Origin: Actinomycetota bacterium
Lineage (GTDB): Bacteria > Actinomycetota > Geothermincolia > Geothermincolales > RBG-13-55-18
Reading direction: 5' to 3'
DNA length: 64,000 nt
Assembly: GCA_028697145.1 (NCBI GenBank)
Contig: JAQVFR010000010.1
Span: forward strand, 1-64,000
The notes under the pieces were generated by a model. That model did no database searches. It had not been told where the DNA came from and saw only the letters and a program-made list of their open reading frames with translations. The first letter of the stretch is position 1. Each line of letters opens with the position of its first letter. Shown here piece after piece: positions 20,390 through 37,730 of the stretch. The position numbers were made by a program, and so were the translations under genes.

Positions 20390-21442
20390 ATGGAACCGGA
20401 AAGGAACCTGAGGCTTATCTCCGCAGAGGCCTTGGGAGAAGAGGAGAGAAACGAGACCTCATCCGTCCCGTATGAGGACGGATACCTGATGGACGCGTAT
20501 TCCAGCGCCGTCTCCGGCGCGGCGGAGAGGGTCAGCCCCGCGGTGGTCAACATCTCCGTCACCCACAAGACGCAGGGGCGGCGCCGGCCCGGTACCTCAC
20601 CCTCGCAGGAAGTCCTGGGCACCGGCTCCGGTTTCGTCTTCACCGGCGACGGCTTCATCCTCACCAACAGCCACGTGGTACAGGGGGCCCGCAAGGCGGA
20701 GGTCACCCTGCCCGACGGCAGGGACTTCCGCGCGGACATCGTGGGGGAGGACCCGGACACGGACCTCGCCGTGGTGAGGATAAGCGCCCCCGCCCTGGAG
20801 CCCTTGTGCCTGGGGGACTCGCAACTCCTGCGCGTGGGACAGCTGGTCATAGCAGTGGGCAACCCCTACGGCTTCCAGTGCACGGTGACCGCCGGGGTGA
20901 TAAGCGCCCTGGGGCGTTCGCTGCGCTCGCGCTCGGGCCGGCTCATCGACAACGTCATCCAGACGGACGCGGCCCTGAATCCCGGCAACTCCGGGGGACC
21001 CCTGGTGAACTCGCGGGGCGAGGTCATCGGGGTGAACACGGCGGTGATCTATCCCGCCCAGGGGCTGTGCTTCGCCATCGCCGTGAACACCGCGAAGTTC
21101 GTGGCGGGACGGCTGATACAGTTCGGGCGGGTCAAGCGCTCCTATATCGGGGCGGCGGGGCAGGACGTGTCCCTCAACCGGCGGGTGGTGCGCTATCACG
21201 ACCTCGCGGTGAGCAAGGGGTTCCTTGTGACCCACATGGAGCCGGGCAGCCCGGCCGCGCGGGCAGGCCTGAAAGAGGGGGACATCATCGTGGCCTTCAA
21301 TGGCTGCCCCGTGGCGGGCGTGGACGACCTGCACCGCATGCTCTCGGAGGAACAGATCGGGGTCAAGTCCAGCCTGACGGTGATCAAGCGGGCCAACAAG
21401 AGGGAAGTGGAGATAGTGCCGGCCGAGAGGAAGGCGGGCTAG
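20390..21442 (+). CDS. HtrA/DegP-like trypsin-type serine protease with PDZ domain, no membrane anchor
   Basis: A 350-residue HtrA-family protease. The catalytic triad is visible: H95 in TNSHVV, D125 in DTDLAVV, and S201 in NPGNSGGP. A single PDZ domain (residues ~255-345, GFLVTHMEPGSPAARAGLKE) follows. HtrA proteins degrade or check misfolded proteins, usually outside the cytoplasm behind a signal or anchor. This one starts MEPERNLRL with no hydrophobic N-terminal segment, so it may act in the cytoplasm or be exported by other means. A good ribosome site (GGAGGAGAAG) sets the ATG. It is followed after 14 bases by the AhpD-like selenoprotein gene and is probably co-transcribed with it. Confidence 0.88.
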   Translation: MEPERNLRLISAEALGEEERNETSSVPYEDGYLMDAYSSAVSGAAERVSPAVVNISVTHKTQGRRRPGTSPSQEVLGTGSGFVFTGDGFILTNSHVVQGARKAEVTLPDGRDFRADIVGEDPDTDLAVVRISAPALEPLCLGDSQLLRVGQLVIAVGNPYGFQCTVTAGVISALGRSLRSRSGRLIDNVIQTDAALNPGNSGGPLVNSRGEVIGVNTAVIYPAQGLCFAIAVNTAKFVAGRLIQFGRVKRSYIGAAGQDVSLNRRVVRYHDLAVSKGFLVTHMEPGSPAARAGLKEGDIIVAFNGCPVAGVDDLHRMLSEEQIGVKSSLTVIKRANKREVEIVPAERKAG

Positions 21443-21456
21443 GGAGAAAGGCCTGT

Positions 21457-22074
21457 ATGCGCAGGGCGTTTCTTGCCGCTACTGTGGGGGTTGCCGCCGG
21501 TGCGGCGGCCGTGAGCCGCCTGCAGCCGAGGCTTGCGCTTCATCCCTGCGACTGGTCGCTCTACGAGGAAGGAGAGACCCGTCGCAGCTACCGCAGCCCC
21601 TCACATTTTCTCTACCACCTGAGGGAACTGCTGGCCGTCCAGGTCCCCGTCGCGGAGGTCTATCTTGCGCGCGCCATCACTCCGGCGTTGCGGGAACGCA
21701 TCATGCTGGTAACGGCATACGCCAACGAGTGTTCGTGGTGACGATCCGCCCATCGGCGGTTCGGTCGGATCGCGGGGATGACGAGGGAGGAGATGCACGA
21801 CCTGGCCAGCCTGGACCCGTCTGCGTTCGACGCGCGCGAATACGCGGCGCTGTGCTGGGTGCGGGAGACGCTGACGCGGAGAGAAGGCGCCTCAGCGCAG
21901 ACGCTCGAGGGGTTCGAGCGCTTCTTCGATGAGCGGCAACGCGCGTATATAGTGGCCGCCATGAAGTCGATGTACTTCTTCAACCTGGCCGGCAATACCC
22001 TGGACGGATGGCTGCGACGACTGGCGGGCGGGCGCGGGGGAAAAGCGGCCGCCTGCGATATAATCCAGGCTTGA
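21457..22074 (+). CDS. AhpD-like alkylhydroperoxidase selenoprotein (in-frame TGA, CxxU)
   Basis: Read through the TGA at 21739-21741, this is one 205-residue AhpD/carboxymuconolactone-decarboxylase-fold protein. AhpD proteins use C-x-x-C-x3-H to reduce peroxides or disulfides. Here the upstream half ends in TPALRERIMLVTAYANECSW, the TGA falls on the second cysteine position (U95), and the same frame goes on with RSAHRRFGRIAGMTREEM, giving C92-x-x-U95-x3-H99. A hairpin starts right after the TGA. The downstream half (residues 96-205) keeps family character (REYAALCWVRETL) and ends in TGA at 22072. Taken at face value the first TGA would cut the protein just at its active site. Start ATG 21457, GGGAGAAAGG upstream. 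A nonsense mutation of a TGC/TGT codon is the alternative. Confidence 0.75.
21742..21772 (+). promoter_or_regulatory. Candidate bacterial SECIS hairpin
   Basis: Immediately after the in-frame TGA, CGATCCG (21742-21748) pairs perfectly with CGGATCG (21766-21772). CC (49-50) and GG (63-64) extend the stem with one bulged T, and GGT lies in the apical loop at 21758-21760. Position, size and a G/U-bearing loop fit the loose bacterial SECIS pattern read by SelB. An inner alternative, CCGCC-CATC-GGCGG (21746-21759), competes with it. Confidence 0.55.
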
Positions 22075-31250: not shown

Positions 31251-32651
31251 ATGCTCTGGACCATCAAGGCCAAGGACGAGTACGGTTTCGGCCGCGAGGC
31301 GGCGAGGGGGAGGGAACGCCTCTTCCGGGCGGCGCTCGACCAGGCCGCGAGATACCTGGGGAAGAGGGGCGCGGACCCGGCTGCGACCGCGGAGAGGACA
31401 AAGCGCCACCTGGCGCTGCTGGCGCAGAGGTATCCCGCTCAACTGGAGCGCATGCAGGGGCTGGCGCGGGCCTTGGGAGTGGAGACCCGCGAGGTGGCGG
31501 CTGGAGGGATGGCCCTGGCGTCGCTGCACGGCACGGGATGCACCAATTTCGTCGCTGTGCCGCCGGCGACCCGCGGCGGCGCGGTCTACGTATCCTGGAA
31601 CTTCGACCTTGCTCCCTTCATGCGGCTCCTCGTCGGAAGGATGCCCCTGTACGTGAGGGACATCGCCGGCAGCAAGCCCTACGCATGCATGGGACTGCCG
31701 GTCCTCTTCGGGATCGGAGTGATGAACGGGGACGGCCTCTCCGCCTGCGTGAACTCGGTGGGAGCCATGGACAGCGGGGAGGGGCTGACCTTCTTCGAGC
31801 TCAACAACCTGGCCATGGAGTCCCAGTCAACTGTGGACGGGGCGGTGAGCGTGTGGAACGACAATCCCCGCGAGGTGGTCCCCGGCCTGGCCATCGCCAT
31901 CATCATGAACGCCAACAACATCTTCGCGGACATGAACGGCGACGCCGTGGTGATCGAGCATTCACACAACCACATGGCGGTGGAGAATGCGGCGGACCAC
32001 GGCGGAGTGCTGGCTTCCGCCAACCACCACCAGTTCCTGGACCGCACGCTCTCGGGAGGGGCCGACCCCTTAAGCGAGCCCCTGATCACCGGGTCCTATG
32101 CCCGCCTGGCCCGCATGTGGGAGCTGCTGGAGGTCTTCAAGGGGAACATCGACCGCGGCGCGGTGAGGATGATCACCACCGACCACGGTGTCAACTATTC
32201 TACCCTGGCGGAATTCGGGATCGAGCGCAGCATCTACGGGGAGCGCGTGGACGACGCCACCATCTGCTGCCACCCCTGGAACTTCTTCCGCCACCTGCGG
32301 CGGCTGGAGCTCGTCGATGCCCTGGTGGAGGTCAACGTGGCCAGGACCCTCAACAACATCCTCATGGACCCGGCGCGCTGCACCATCTATATCACCCCGG
32401 GAAACCCGTGCCGCAAACAGTACGTGCCGGTGTGGGTCGGGGATGCCCTGCGCATGGAGTGGGCCGACAAGGCCAGGGAGGAGATGGATTATGTGCCGGA
32501 GTGGCGCCCGGAGACGCGCGCGAAACGCATCGATGTCTTCCGCCGGCCTGACGCCACGGCCACCAGCGACCGCATGCGCTCCATCGGCCTCAACGCTTTC
32601 GGGGCCATGGACCGGCTGATGGAATCGGTGATAGTCAAGGAACAGGGCTGA
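31251..32651 (+). CDS. C45-family autoproteolytic acyltransferase/hydrolase (Ntn fold)
   Basis: A 466-residue Ntn-hydrolase of the acyl-CoA:6-aminopenicillanate acyltransferase (peptidase C45) family. Members cut themselves before a cysteine and then use that N-terminal cysteine for amide transfer or hydrolysis. Here the cleavage point is G96/C97 in LHGTGCTNFV, followed by the family's GGAVYVSWNFDLAP and a second-half pattern FGIGVMNGDGLSACVNSVG and SANHH. Residues 1-96 would be the released propeptide. ATG 31251 has AGGAGG eight bases in front. It lies behind a PlsC gene. Its last codons overlap the end of the convergent HyuA-like gene by 17 bases. The substrate may be an N-acyl amino acid or lipid amide. 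Confidence 0.78.
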   Translation: MLWTIKAKDEYGFGREAARGRERLFRAALDQAARYLGKRGADPAATAERTKRHLALLAQRYPAQLERMQGLARALGVETREVAAGGMALASLHGTGCTNFVAVPPATRGGAVYVSWNFDLAPFMRLLVGRMPLYVRDIAGSKPYACMGLPVLFGIGVMNGDGLSACVNSVGAMDSGEGLTFFELNNLAMESQSTVDGAVSVWNDNPREVVPGLAIAIIMNANNIFADMNGDAVVIEHSHNHMAVENAADHGGVLASANHHQFLDRTLSGGADPLSEPLITGSYARLARMWELLEVFKGNIDRGAVRMITTDHGVNYSTLAEFGIERSIYGERVDDATICCHPWNFFRHLRRLELVDALVEVNVARTLNNILMDPARCTIYITPGNPCRKQYVPVWVGDALRMEWADKAREEMDYVPEWRPETRAKRIDVFRRPDATATSDRMRSIGLNAFGAMDRLMESVIVKEQG

Positions 32652-34593
32652 CCCTCGGGCGGCCGTAGGCGCGAACGGTCAACTTGCGCTCCAACACTGT
32701 CGCGTTACCGGCGGAATCGTATACTGTGAAATCGTCCGCGTGCTCATCGCGCTCTATCTCGCCCGCCCCCGCCAGGCGGGCGGCCTCCTCGGCCAGTCCG
32801 CAGGCTTTTTCTTCCGCCCAAGACGTGGCCGAGGCGAGGTCGGGAAAATCACATATTCCGTCCGAGGCGAAGGCGCGCCAGGTCTCGTCGGTCTGGCGCC
32901 GCATGATGACCTCTTCGCGGTGGCTGACCACGCCGGCCACAGCTCCTACGGCGTTGGCCACTTCCATGTGGGGCGGCACCACGCATTCGCATGACAGGAA
33001 GGACGCCACAGGGGCGAGGAAGAGCGCGGCGGGGGCCCCCGCTGCGAGAATGGGGGCCTCCAGCCTCAGGTCCAGCTTCACCCCGCGCGTTTCCCCGCCC
33101 CCCATCCATCTCTCCAGCAGTGTCCTGTCCCGGCCGTCCAGTTCCAACAGGAAGACGAGGATTTCCCCGGCTATGGCCTCCAGGGCGGCGCGCTTGACCT
33201 TTGCGATCAGCTCGGGTGGAGGGACTCCGGTCAGGCCGGATGCCGCCTCCACGGCTGCCCGCGATAACCCGGCGCTGCCCACCAGGGATTCGCCGGCCGC
33301 GTTGAAGACGTCGGTGGGGGTGAGGGAGGAACGCAGGACGGCTCCGGCGTGCTCCATGCTCAGGAGGCGCAGCGATTCCTCCGCGCCCACAGCGGAGGAT
33401 TTGAGCTCGAGATGGGAGAGCGGCCTCTCCTCCAGAAGGCGCGATAGGTCCGCACCCGCGGCATCGCATGCGGAGATGTCTCCGTCTCCAGCCCCTATCC
33501 AGAAGGTGAGCATGTCCGGAAGCGGCCACCGCGAGCGGGAGGCGGCGATGCGCCCCAGGTCTTCGAGTACTCCCTCTCCGCCCGGCAGCATGGCGATGGG
33601 GAGCACCCTGCGAGGGCCGAGTTCCAGGCTTCCGTCGCGGGAGAGCCTGATCCATGAATCGCCGCCCAGGCCTATGGTGCGTATGTCGATGGCCTCCACG
33701 CGGGTTGCGAGTCCGCCCACAACGGCGCCCTCGCCGTTGATGGGTGGCAGGCCGCCGGACACCCAGGCTATATCGGTGGTGGTGCCCCCGATATCGATGA
33801 CCACGCCCTCGCGGCGCCCCGACAGGGTCAGGGCCCCCACCACGGAGGCGGCGGGGCCTGAGAGGATGGTCTCCACCGGGCGCTCCAGGGCCATCTCCGC
33901 TCCCATGAGGGTGCCGTCGCCGCGCACCACCATGAGAGGGCAGCGGATGCCTCGTTTGTACAGTATGGACAGGGTCGACGAGATGAGCGCGGTGATGAGG
34001 GGGATGAGGCGGGCATTGACCGCGGCCGTGGTGGCGCGCCGGGGCGCATCGAGCTGCATGGAGAGCTCGTGCCCGCACACGATGGGCTTGCCCGTCTCCC
34101 GCGAGATGATGTCACGGGCGCGCATCTCGTGGGCAGGGTTGCGCACGCTGAAATAACCGGATACGGCGAAGGCGTCGGCCCATTCGCCGTTGCCGCGAGC
34201 GGCGGCCCGCAGGCCCTCTTCGTCCAGCGGTTCCGTCTCCTCGCCCCGCACGTCGTGTGCACCGCGCAGGCGTATCACCCGTGCTCCGAAGGGGGAGACG
34301 GTCGCGGCCGCCTCGTAGCCGAGCAGGATGAGGCAGGCCTTGCCGCCCTTTCCCTCCACGATGGCATTTGTCGCCAGGGTGGTGGAAAGGCAGGCCAGGC
34401 AGGACAGCCGCAGCAGGTATCCCGGCAATTCGCCGAGGACCCCGTCTATGCAGCGCGTGAGGTCGTGGTGGCTGGTGGGGAACTTGGCGGAGGCGAGCAC
34501 TTCTCCCGAGTCCATGTCGTAGACGACGGCATCGGTGTAGGTGCCGCCACAGTCCACCCCCAGTCCCAGGCGCCCGCCGTTATCCTCTCCCAA
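32635..34593 (-). CDS. Hydantoinase/oxoprolinase HyuA-like protein
   Basis: A 652-residue protein of the hydantoinase A/5-oxoprolinase family, ATP-dependent cyclic-amide hydrolases with an actin-like fold. N-terminal phosphate loop GLGVDCGGTYTDAVVYD, the mid-protein second loop VVIDIGGTTTDIAWVSGG, and SGPAASVVGAL place it clearly. The start is taken at TTG 34593 (reading GEDNGGRLG), with AGGAAGGGAAG upstream. The frame runs on to 34803 but overlaps the promoter area of the divergent gene. HyuB, the usual partner, is absent, so the protein may act alone, as some monofunctional members do. Short overlap (17 bases) with the end of the C45 gene. Confidence 0.83.
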   Translation of the reverse strand: MGEDNGGRLGLGVDCGGTYTDAVVYDMDSGEVLASAKFPTSHHDLTRCIDGVLGELPGYLLRLSCLACLSTTLATNAIVEGKGGKACLILLGYEAAATVSPFGARVIRLRGAHDVRGEETEPLDEEGLRAAARGNGEWADAFAVSGYFSVRNPAHEMRARDIISRETGKPIVCGHELSMQLDAPRRATTAAVNARLIPLITALISSTLSILYKRGIRCPLMVVRGDGTLMGAEMALERPVETILSGPAASVVGALTLSGRREGVVIDIGGTTTDIAWVSGGLPPINGEGAVVGGLATRVEAIDIRTIGLGGDSWIRLSRDGSLELGPRRVLPIAMLPGGEGVLEDLGRIAASRSRWPLPDMLTFWIGAGDGDISACDAAGADLSRLLEERPLSHLELKSSAVGAEESLRLLSMEHAGAVLRSSLTPTDVFNAAGESLVGSAGLSRAAVEAASGLTGVPPPELIAKVKRAALEAIAGEILVFLLELDGRDRTLLERWMGGGETRGVKLDLRLEAPILAAGAPAALFLAPVASFLSCECVVPPHMEVANAVGAVAGVVSHREEVIMRRQTDETWRAFASDGICDFPDLASATSWAEEKACGLAEEAARLAGAGEIERDEHADDFTVYDSAGNATVLERKLTVRAYGRPRVSPVP

Positions 34594-34796
34594 GTCGCTT
34601 CCCTTCCTGCTGAGGACCGCCTCTATATTATTAGCAGGAATCGACGGGCGTTGCGATACCCGCGGGCGGACGGAAGCGGGTTTCGTGATATATTTGTGCC
34701 CGGAATATTTGTCGCGCGCGGCCGGAATTCGAGCGGAGAGAGCGATGTCCGCCAGGGGAGCCGCGGCGCGGTCGTGTGGAAAGGACGGAAGGCGGT

Positions 34797-36251
34797 ATGG
34801 CATCTGGGGTCGTCCCGGAGGCGTGCGCGGACCTCCGCCCCTTCTTCACCCCCCAAGGGGTGGTCATCGTGGGGGCGCGGCGCTCGCCGGGTTTCGGTTT
34901 CGTCCTGCCCCTCTCACTGCGCAAGCAGGGCTGGGGAGACCGCGTATACCTGGTGAATCCGGCCGGAGGAGAGCTGCACGGATTCCCTCTCCACGAGAGG
35001 ATCGCCGACGTCCCCGCGGGTCCCGACCTGGCCGTGGTCATCGTGCCCGCTCCGGTGGTGCCCCAGGCCCTGATCGAGCTGGGGGAAAGGGGCATCAAGC
35101 ACGCCATCATCGAGAGCGCGGGCTTCGCCGAGATAGGAGAAGGGGGGAAAGCGCTGCAAGAGGAGGCGAGGGAGGCTGCATCACGCTACGGCATCCGCGT
35201 CATCGGGCCCAACTGCGTTGGGGTGATCAACACCGCCAACCACCTCCACACCGTGGAGGTTGTGGAGGAAGCCTTCACGCCCGGTCCGGTGGCGGTCATC
35301 GCTCAGAGCGGGGTCTTCGGCAACATCCTCCTGGACGGCCTGCACCAGAAGAGCCTGTTTATCTCCAAGGCTGTGACCCTGGGCAACCGCATGGACGTCA
35401 ACGAATGCGAGGTCCTGGATTACCTGCACCACGACCCGGATACCGGGGTGATCATGATGTACCTGGAGGGGGCGGCGGACGGGAGGCTGCTCAAGGAGAC
35501 ACTGGAGCGGGTGACCCGGGACAAGCCGGTCCTGGTGCTCAAGAGCGGCCGCACCGGGGCGGGGAGGCAGGCGACGGCGTCCCATACCGGGAGCATGTCC
35601 GGCGAGGACGAAATCTACGAGGCGGTGTTCAGGCAATCCGGCGCCATCCGGGCGCGCAGCCTGGACGAGCTGGTGGACATGGCGCGTGTCTTCGCCACCC
35701 AGCCCCTCCCTCCGGGCAACCGCTTGGGGATCGTCACTTCCAGCGGCAGCCTTGGCGCGCTGGCGACCGACACGGCCATCGAGACCGGGCTGGAGCTTCC
35801 CGCCCTGGAACCCGCATCGGTGGAGAAGGTGCGCGGCGTCGCCCCGCAGTGGATGAACGTGCGCAACCCCCTGGACGTGGGGCCGTCCGGGCAGTTCCTT
35901 CCAGCCATGACCGCCATGCTCGAGGACCCCAACATAGACATGGTGCTCTCCATCGCGGTGATGCCCTTCGCGGTGTTCCGGGAGTTGCTGGAGCGCGGCA
36001 TATCCGTGAAAAACTGGTTGGGAGCGGCCCCCGAACTGCGGGAACTCGCGCCGCAAAAACCCCTCGTCCTGTGTTCCCTGGGGGACCAGGGTTTCGTATC
36101 GGACCTGGACGAGGCCATCGGCCCGGACGTGCCCGTGCTCACCTCTCCCGAATCAGCCGCGCGCGCCCTGGCCGCCCTTTACCGGTACGGGGCGGCGCGG
36201 GAGAGGCGGCTGCCGGCGGGGTCTCGAGAGGGAGGAAGAGATCTTCACTGA
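34797..36251 (+). CDS. ADP-forming acyl-CoA synthetase, alpha-type chain
   Basis: A 484-residue protein with a CoA-binding domain (FTPQGVVIVGARRSPGFGF), a central succinyl-CoA-ligase-type domain (RVIGPNCVGVINT, AVIAQSGVFGN) and the phosphohistidine loop ASHTGSMSG. This is the alpha part of ADP-forming acetyl/acyl-CoA synthetases, which make ATP from acyl-CoA. The ATP-grasp beta part, fused or adjacent in working enzymes, is missing here and next door. Another such alpha chain is at 48079. The start is ATG 34797. GTG 34776 would add seven residues. The beta chain may be encoded elsewhere, or the protein may act as a CoA-acyl transferring or regulatory protein. Confidence 0.84.
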   Translation: MASGVVPEACADLRPFFTPQGVVIVGARRSPGFGFVLPLSLRKQGWGDRVYLVNPAGGELHGFPLHERIADVPAGPDLAVVIVPAPVVPQALIELGERGIKHAIIESAGFAEIGEGGKALQEEAREAASRYGIRVIGPNCVGVINTANHLHTVEVVEEAFTPGPVAVIAQSGVFGNILLDGLHQKSLFISKAVTLGNRMDVNECEVLDYLHHDPDTGVIMMYLEGAADGRLLKETLERVTRDKPVLVLKSGRTGAGRQATASHTGSMSGEDEIYEAVFRQSGAIRARSLDELVDMARVFATQPLPPGNRLGIVTSSGSLGALATDTAIETGLELPALEPASVEKVRGVAPQWMNVRNPLDVGPSGQFLPAMTAMLEDPNIDMVLSIAVMPFAVFRELLERGISVKNWLGAAPELRELAPQKPLVLCSLGDQGFVSDLDEAIGPDVPVLTSPESAARALAALYRYGAARERRLPAGSREGGRDLH

Positions 36252-37109: not shown

Positions 37110-37730
37110 ATGGCCCGGCCCAGGGACAAGGCGGAAACCCGCAAGAAAGAGATCCTGGAGAACTTCTATGCCGTCCTCGCCGAGGAAGGCCTCGAGGGCG
37201 CGTCCATGGCCAAGATAGCCTCCCGCATGGGCATCCACCCCAGCCTCATCATCCATTACTTCTCGAACAGGGAGGAGATGGTCGTCGAGCTCGTGGACTT
37301 CATGCTGGCGAAGTACGAGGAGGCCTTCCTGCCCCGCTTTCGCGAGATCGACGACCCCATGGAAAGGCTGCATGCGATCATCGACGCCATCTTCGGTCAG
37401 GACTGGGCGCGGCTGGTGGACGCCGGTGTCTTCTATGCCTGTTACTCGCTGAGCTTACGCAACGACAGGGTGCGCGATAGCTTTAAGGAGATGTACACGA
37501 AGCTCCACGAGGTATTGCAGAAAGAGATCGGTGATCTCATGCGGATGGGCATGATCGTCAAAGCCGATCCAGGCAAGCTGGCAGACCTCATCATCTCCCT
37601 GCTGGAGGGGTACGATTTTTATCGCAGGGTGATGGACGATGACGCGCGCTTTGACGAACTGGGGCGGTTCCTCGGGGAGAACGCCCTGGCCATCCTGAGG
37701 GTCGATCGCCAGGGGAGCGGCCGAGTGTAA
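37110..37730 (+). CDS. TetR family transcriptional regulator
   Basis: A 206-residue TetR-type repressor. The N-terminal DNA-binding domain (residues 10-55) shows RKKEILENFYAVLAEEGLEG, ASMAKIASRMGIHPSLIIHY and FSNREEMVVELVD, the last a BetI/TetR-like helix. The rest is a helical ligand domain (FYACYSLSLRNDRVRDSF). A promoter with an overlapping dyad lies directly upstream, so it probably represses itself. The following genes on the same strand (SDR, TPP enzyme, SDR, UroD-like, nitroreductase-like) may be its regulon. GGGGGAGAG upstream sets the ATG. Confidence 0.9.
   Translation: MARPRDKAETRKKEILENFYAVLAEEGLEGASMAKIASRMGIHPSLIIHYFSNREEMVVELVDFMLAKYEEAFLPRFREIDDPMERLHAIIDAIFGQDWARLVDAGVFYACYSLSLRNDRVRDSFKEMYTKLHEVLQKEIGDLMRMGMIVKADPGKLADLIISLLEGYDFYRRVMDDDARFDELGRFLGENALAILRVDRQGSGRV

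Follow-up and report, generated by a model that had tools for sequence, protein, structure and literature searches.

Results

An AhpD-like reading frame continues through an internal TGA

We analysed an AhpD-like gene at positions 21457–22074 (+ strand) of the window, the entire 64,000-nucleotide stretch of DNA under study. The gene begins with an ATG located 14 nt past the stop codon of an htrA-like gene (20390–21442, + strand; trypsin and PDZ domains), with GGGAGAAAGG 5' of the ATG, and ends at a TGA stop codon (22072–22074). Positions 21457–22071 form a single frame of 205 residues when an internal TGA (21739–21741, + strand), codon 95, is taken as a residue.

The first-pass annotation of this DNA had proposed that one frame encodes AhpD-like sequence on both sides of the TGA, and that the TGA occupies the position of the second cysteine of a C-x-x-C-x3-H active site. 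Profile searches and alignment bear out both proposals. The Pfam CMD profile (PF02627) matches residues 69–136, across the TGA (E-value 7.8e-8; 32.7 bits against a cut-off of 23), as does the TIGR00778 AhpD core domain (E-value 8.8e-8; 31.5 bits against a cut-off of 27.8). Neither half of the protein matched Pfam when searched alone, so the joined frame is required for the homology. The motif around codon 95 reads N90-x-C92-S-W-U95-R-S-A-H99, and in alignments with AhpD-like proteins the TGA falls on their second active-site Cys. A periodicity scan of the window yielded 11 candidates for TGA recoding, of which only the TGA at 21739 was judged convincing, by position and context.

Architecture and fold of the predicted protein

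The protein is a member of the AhpD/CMD superfamily, as established by profile matches above their cut-offs and by an AhpD fold. The Glu-Cys-x-x-Cys-x3-His relay is complete, with Sec95 in place of a Cys: Glu80 (21694–21696, + strand), the proton-relay Glu, and Cys92 (21730–21732, + strand), the first residue of CxxU, are invariant in the homologues and are spaced as Glu118 and Cys130 are in Mycobacterium tuberculosis AhpD, and the invariant proton-relay His99 (21751–21753, + strand) corresponds to His137 of that protein (PMC3141380). The AlphaFold2 model has a pLDDT of 85, with a disordered C-terminal tail (pLDDT below 50). The best solved Foldseek match is the Pseudomonas aeruginosa AhpD protein PA0269 (TM-score 0.70–0.80, normalized by target length), followed by further AhpD-like proteins, among them the debrominase Bmp8. 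The window protein gave no match to TIGR00777, the equivalog model for true AhpD, and we do not assign it to true AhpD, the peroxiredoxin adaptor.

Three elements lie outside the catalytic core. Residues 4–20 (21466–21516, + strand) form a hydrophobic N-terminal segment, predicted from hydropathy to be a membrane anchor or signal, and a positively charged, hydrophobic N-terminus is present in every homologue with an intact N-terminus. This segment is followed by an [LM]HxxD motif, of which H29 and D32 are invariant, and then by the AhpD-like domain. Finally, Cys200 (22054–22056, + strand) lies in the flexible C-terminal tail. A Cys in the last few residues is found in nine of ten full-length homologues, including two Cys-type sequences; the exception is L021.

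Homologues carry either TGA or Cys at codon 95

The gene was found in 10 of the 31 genomes of the class, including the window genome; its absence from most genomes of the class indicates that it is dispensable. Nine other loci in the class hold an intact gene, with TGA at codon 95 in seven (L013, L014, L015, L018, L019, L020 and L021) and Cys in two (TGT in L016, TGC in L017); no other residue was found at this position. With seven further intact genes repeating it at this very codon, the TGA is far beyond chance. The eight TGA-bearing genes are related to one another and do not amount to eight independent observations. A contig search returned three contigs of Actinomycetota metagenome-assembled genomes with a homologue (63–72% identity), which are the same genes as those of G001, G009 and G002. 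Neither a search of 99 relatives nor one of 397 phylum genomes turned up a close homologue outside the class; the latter gave two weak hits only (E-values 6e-21 and 2e-14), neither with an internal stop.

In a phylogeny built by maximum likelihood, two separate changes are required to account for the Cys genes, and the L016 Cys gene groups with the TGA-bearing L015 (support 92/91) within a supported clade (100/98).

Decay downstream of the TGA was absent from the relatives except for a second copy of the gene in genome G028 (L029/L061; C83:6177–6692). This copy starts late, has two in-frame TGAs, the second at a Gly position, and carries GGG instead of GGT in the loop described below. It is probably decaying.

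The genome encodes the selenocysteine machinery

The window organism's genome (2.98 Mb, 97.6% complete) contains selA, selB, selC and selD in one cluster on contig C3. The genes run in a single direction in the order selD (32280–33203), a yedF-like gene (TusA-type, named by sequence), selA (34047–35417) and selB (SelB wing at 37217–37351), followed by selC, the one tRNA-Sec above the Rfam cut-off (79 bits; 37492–37583). The selD gene has an in-frame TGA near its start, and SelD is itself read across this TGA (SGU; L048:5811–5813, on C3 of the same genome).

Every genome with the TGA form of the AhpD-like gene also has selA and selB. Among the genomes with a Cys form, G012 has both and neither was found in G017 (82% complete). 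The Cys codon of L017 in G017, together with selA and selB not being found there, fits a loss of the selenocysteine trait.

A conserved GGU-loop hairpin follows the TGA

The predicted bacterial SECIS element of the window gene (21756–21773, + strand) is a 7-bp stem of GCGGUUC (21756–21762) and GGAUCGC (21767–21773) closed by the apical loop GGUC (21763–21766), 21 nt past the UGA, with a folding energy of −9.0 kcal/mol. Published limits for bacterial SECIS elements are a loop of 3–9 nt, an upper stem of 4–16 bp, a G in the first two loop positions, a distance of 16–37 nt from the UGA and a minimum free energy of at most −7.5 kcal/mol (PMC13188914), and the window hairpin lies within them in loop, stem, spacing and energy.

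The first-pass annotation had pointed out a different 7-bp stem with a GGT in its loop, CGATCCG (21742–21748) paired with CGGATCG (21766–21772), as a candidate SECIS. That stem does exist directly after the TGA, but its 17-nt loop and 7-nt spacing lie outside the published limits, which rules it out as the SECIS, and the fold of lowest energy for those 31 nt is another one.

Silent sites mark the same place. The eight TGA-bearing genes share 32 degenerate codons with an invariant amino acid, and five of these keep a single codon. Three of the five are two-fold codons (D32, F102 and N176). The only four- or six-fold codons fixed in 8/8 genes are G103 (GGT) and R104 (CGG), which are adjacent, begin 21 nt past the UGA, and sit in and beside the hairpin loop. 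Neighbouring genes use GGT for 9% of Gly residues and CGG for 19% of Arg residues. At codons 103–104 the Cys genes read GGA-CGC and GCC-CGC, keeping neither fixed codon.

A 6–7 bp stem under a common GGU loop can be drawn in all eight TGA-bearing genes. L013, L014, L015 and L019 form the same seven pairs as the window gene, one of the positions alternating among A-U, G-U and G-C; the pairing register is shifted by one nucleotide in L018 and L021, and in L020 the shifted register has one mismatch. A single register for all eight genes thus fails, and two registers one nucleotide apart are required. The pairing is absent from the two Cys genes in both registers.

An Rfam scan gave no match at the hairpin. 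In naked RNA the minimum-energy fold is a different, upstream hairpin. This fold lies no more than about 22 nt from the UGA, where a ribosome paused at that codon would presumably hide most of it. Compared with synonymous shuffles of the same genes, the GGU-loop hairpin region does not clearly stand out as stronger in folding energy in this GC-rich genome (fraction 0.12–0.53 in the intact TGA-bearing genes). The evidence for the hairpin therefore comes from codon fixation and not from energy alone. On the strength of these conserved bases, we identify the GGU-loop hairpin as the predicted SECIS of the AhpD-like gene.

Two peroxiredoxin genes of the same genome carry in-frame TGAs

Both genes with an AhpC-TSA domain in the window genome carry an in-frame TGA. 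In L063 (C22:50702–51100), which encodes an AhpC-type peroxiredoxin, the TGA (at 1630) occupies the position of the peroxidatic Cys (TFVU). The protein is of PrxU type (NF040737, 384 bits against a cut-off of 270) and is, as judged from its sequence, another selenoprotein of this genome. L064 (C31:14350–14733; TGA at 1615) encodes a peroxiredoxin/thioredoxin-like protein with the motif TWUPHC. It has a perfect 7-bp hairpin, GTATGTG-GGT-CACATAC, with the GGT 21 nt past the TGA, the same offset as in the AhpD-like gene. An NCBIfam scan of L064 gave no model above its cut-off, and L064 possibly represents an unnamed subfamily.

Gene neighbourhood

The AhpD-like protein had been suggested to work beside the HtrA-like protease. 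The htrA-like gene lies upstream in the window and in three (G001, G002 and G012) of the five other family members with an AhpD-like gene; it was not found near the AhpD-like gene in the remaining two, G009 and G013. The adjacency is not kept outside the family, where no htrA was found near the gene in the more distant relatives. Neighbourhoods differ beyond the family, with no universal operon partner. No signal, leader or membrane segment is visible in the window HtrA-like protein, which makes a compartment in common with the AhpD-like protein doubtful. A joint role is conjectural, with family-level gene adjacency as its support.

Discussion

Recoding of the UGA

The internal stop codon is almost certainly read as selenocysteine. 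Homologue codons, the sel genes and the lack of decay after the TGA all agree with the earlier proposal that the gene is translated with selenocysteine, and the recoding step is strongly supported at the level of comparative sequence analysis. We hold with high confidence that the gene would encode a membrane-anchored AhpD-fold oxidoreductase with Sec95 in its active site, its UGA being decoded via SelB and the GGU-loop hairpin.

In the proposed mechanism, SelB carrying Sec-tRNA-Sec would bind the GGU-loop hairpin 21 nt past the UGA and so direct insertion of Sec at residue 95. Sec95 would be the first residue to attack the peroxide or disulfide substrate, since it stands in the place of Cys133 of M. 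tuberculosis AhpD, taken here to be the first-reacting residue of that enzyme. Cys92 would next act as the resolving residue, forming a selenenyl-sulfide with Sec95 while Glu80 and His99 relay protons, and the tail Cys200 may hand electrons onward. The AhpD-type redox chemistry is inferred by analogy with family residues; the substrate, the electron donor and the role of the tail Cys are guesses.

The most serious alternative keeps the recoding and changes the chemistry. Instead of a peroxidase, the enzyme would be a thiol-disulfide reductase acting outside the cytoplasm, or else a reductive dehalogenase of the Bmp8 kind. The N-terminal anchor would give it an extracytoplasmic location, Bmp8 figures in the list of structural matches, and Trp94 lies between the active-site residues where AhpD proteins have His132 or Tyr50. 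Against this, the closest matches are AhpD proteins of the PA0269 type, PA0269 being a weak H2O2 reductase, and nothing in the gene context points to halogenated substrates. We consider this alternative a realistic one, if somewhat short of probable.

Far less credible is a pseudogene or assembly error, in which a Cys or Trp codon was mutated to TGA in a decaying gene. Decay does occur in the family, as the G028 paralogue with its two TGAs, late start and missing GGU loop illustrates; however, the TGA recurs at one and the same codon in eight intact genes whose genomes were assembled separately and which show no further lesion, silent sites are fixed just past it, and Cys is the sole alternative residue, leaving this explanation extremely improbable. 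Equally improbable is a true stop separating a 94-residue protein from a separately started 98-residue protein: an ATG (21778) does lie 36 nt past the TGA, but splitting there would break the two-helix hairpin of the AhpD active site and exclude His99 from translation, with neither half recognized by Pfam and the Cys homologues forming one continuous frame.

Relation to known AhpD-like selenoproteins

The AhpD-like CxxU selenoprotein is of an already known kind. A 2005 study of the Sargasso Sea described 27 such sequences (PMC1088965); the GOS survey treated them as two families (PMC2398784), and a 2026 review lists them (PMC13188914). As described in the portions of the two surveys drawn on here, AhpD-like 1, AhpD-like 2 and the CMD-domain protein (PMC1088965; PMC2398784) share with the window protein and its gene the AhpD/CMD fold, Sec as the second residue of CxxU, the existence of Cys homologues and a downstream SECIS-like hairpin. 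An N-terminal anchor, HxxD and tail Cys go unmentioned in those portions.

Three NCBIfam (seleno)protein models, GSU3128 (NF041047), AhpD_rel (NF041238) and YciW-related (NF053654), belong to the same superfamily and match members of the group weakly, the lowest E-value among them being about 1e-4. Against NF053654 the window protein reaches 13 bits, where the cut-off is 310 bits, and neither NF041047 nor NF041238 was among its matches listed, so that it belongs to none of the three models. PA0269 (2O4D, 2IJC and 7XW1) and M. tuberculosis AhpD (1GU9) share its fold and the E...CxxC...H relay, with Cys where the window protein has Sec. The PA0269 alignment covers residues 74–178, and the anchor, HxxD and tail Cys of the window protein have no counterpart there.

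Judged by these models, the window protein groups with its relatives in what looks to be an unnamed branch. The new element is this subfamily, restricted to the class, in which the N-terminus carries an anchor, HxxD is invariant and a Cys is conserved in the C-terminal tail. We suggest, tentatively, that Cys92, Sec95 and Cys200 serve as three redox centres in a distinct set of membrane-anchored AhpD-fold selenoenzymes with an invariant N-terminal HxxD, where the flexible tail Cys might shuttle electrons between an external partner and the selenenyl-sulfide. The same organism would also make both of its AhpC-family peroxiredoxins as selenoproteins.

Gene callers that treat TGA as a stop split or truncate the AhpD-like gene, and a conserved catalytic protein is thereby missed. 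With the gene recovered, the selenoproteome of this little-known class of actinobacteria gains an anchored AhpD-like branch. The gene also offers a natural experiment, in which near relatives have either Sec with the hairpin or Cys without it. Together with the two Sec-type peroxiredoxins, the AhpD-like gene suggests that much of the peroxide defence of this lineage may depend on selenium.
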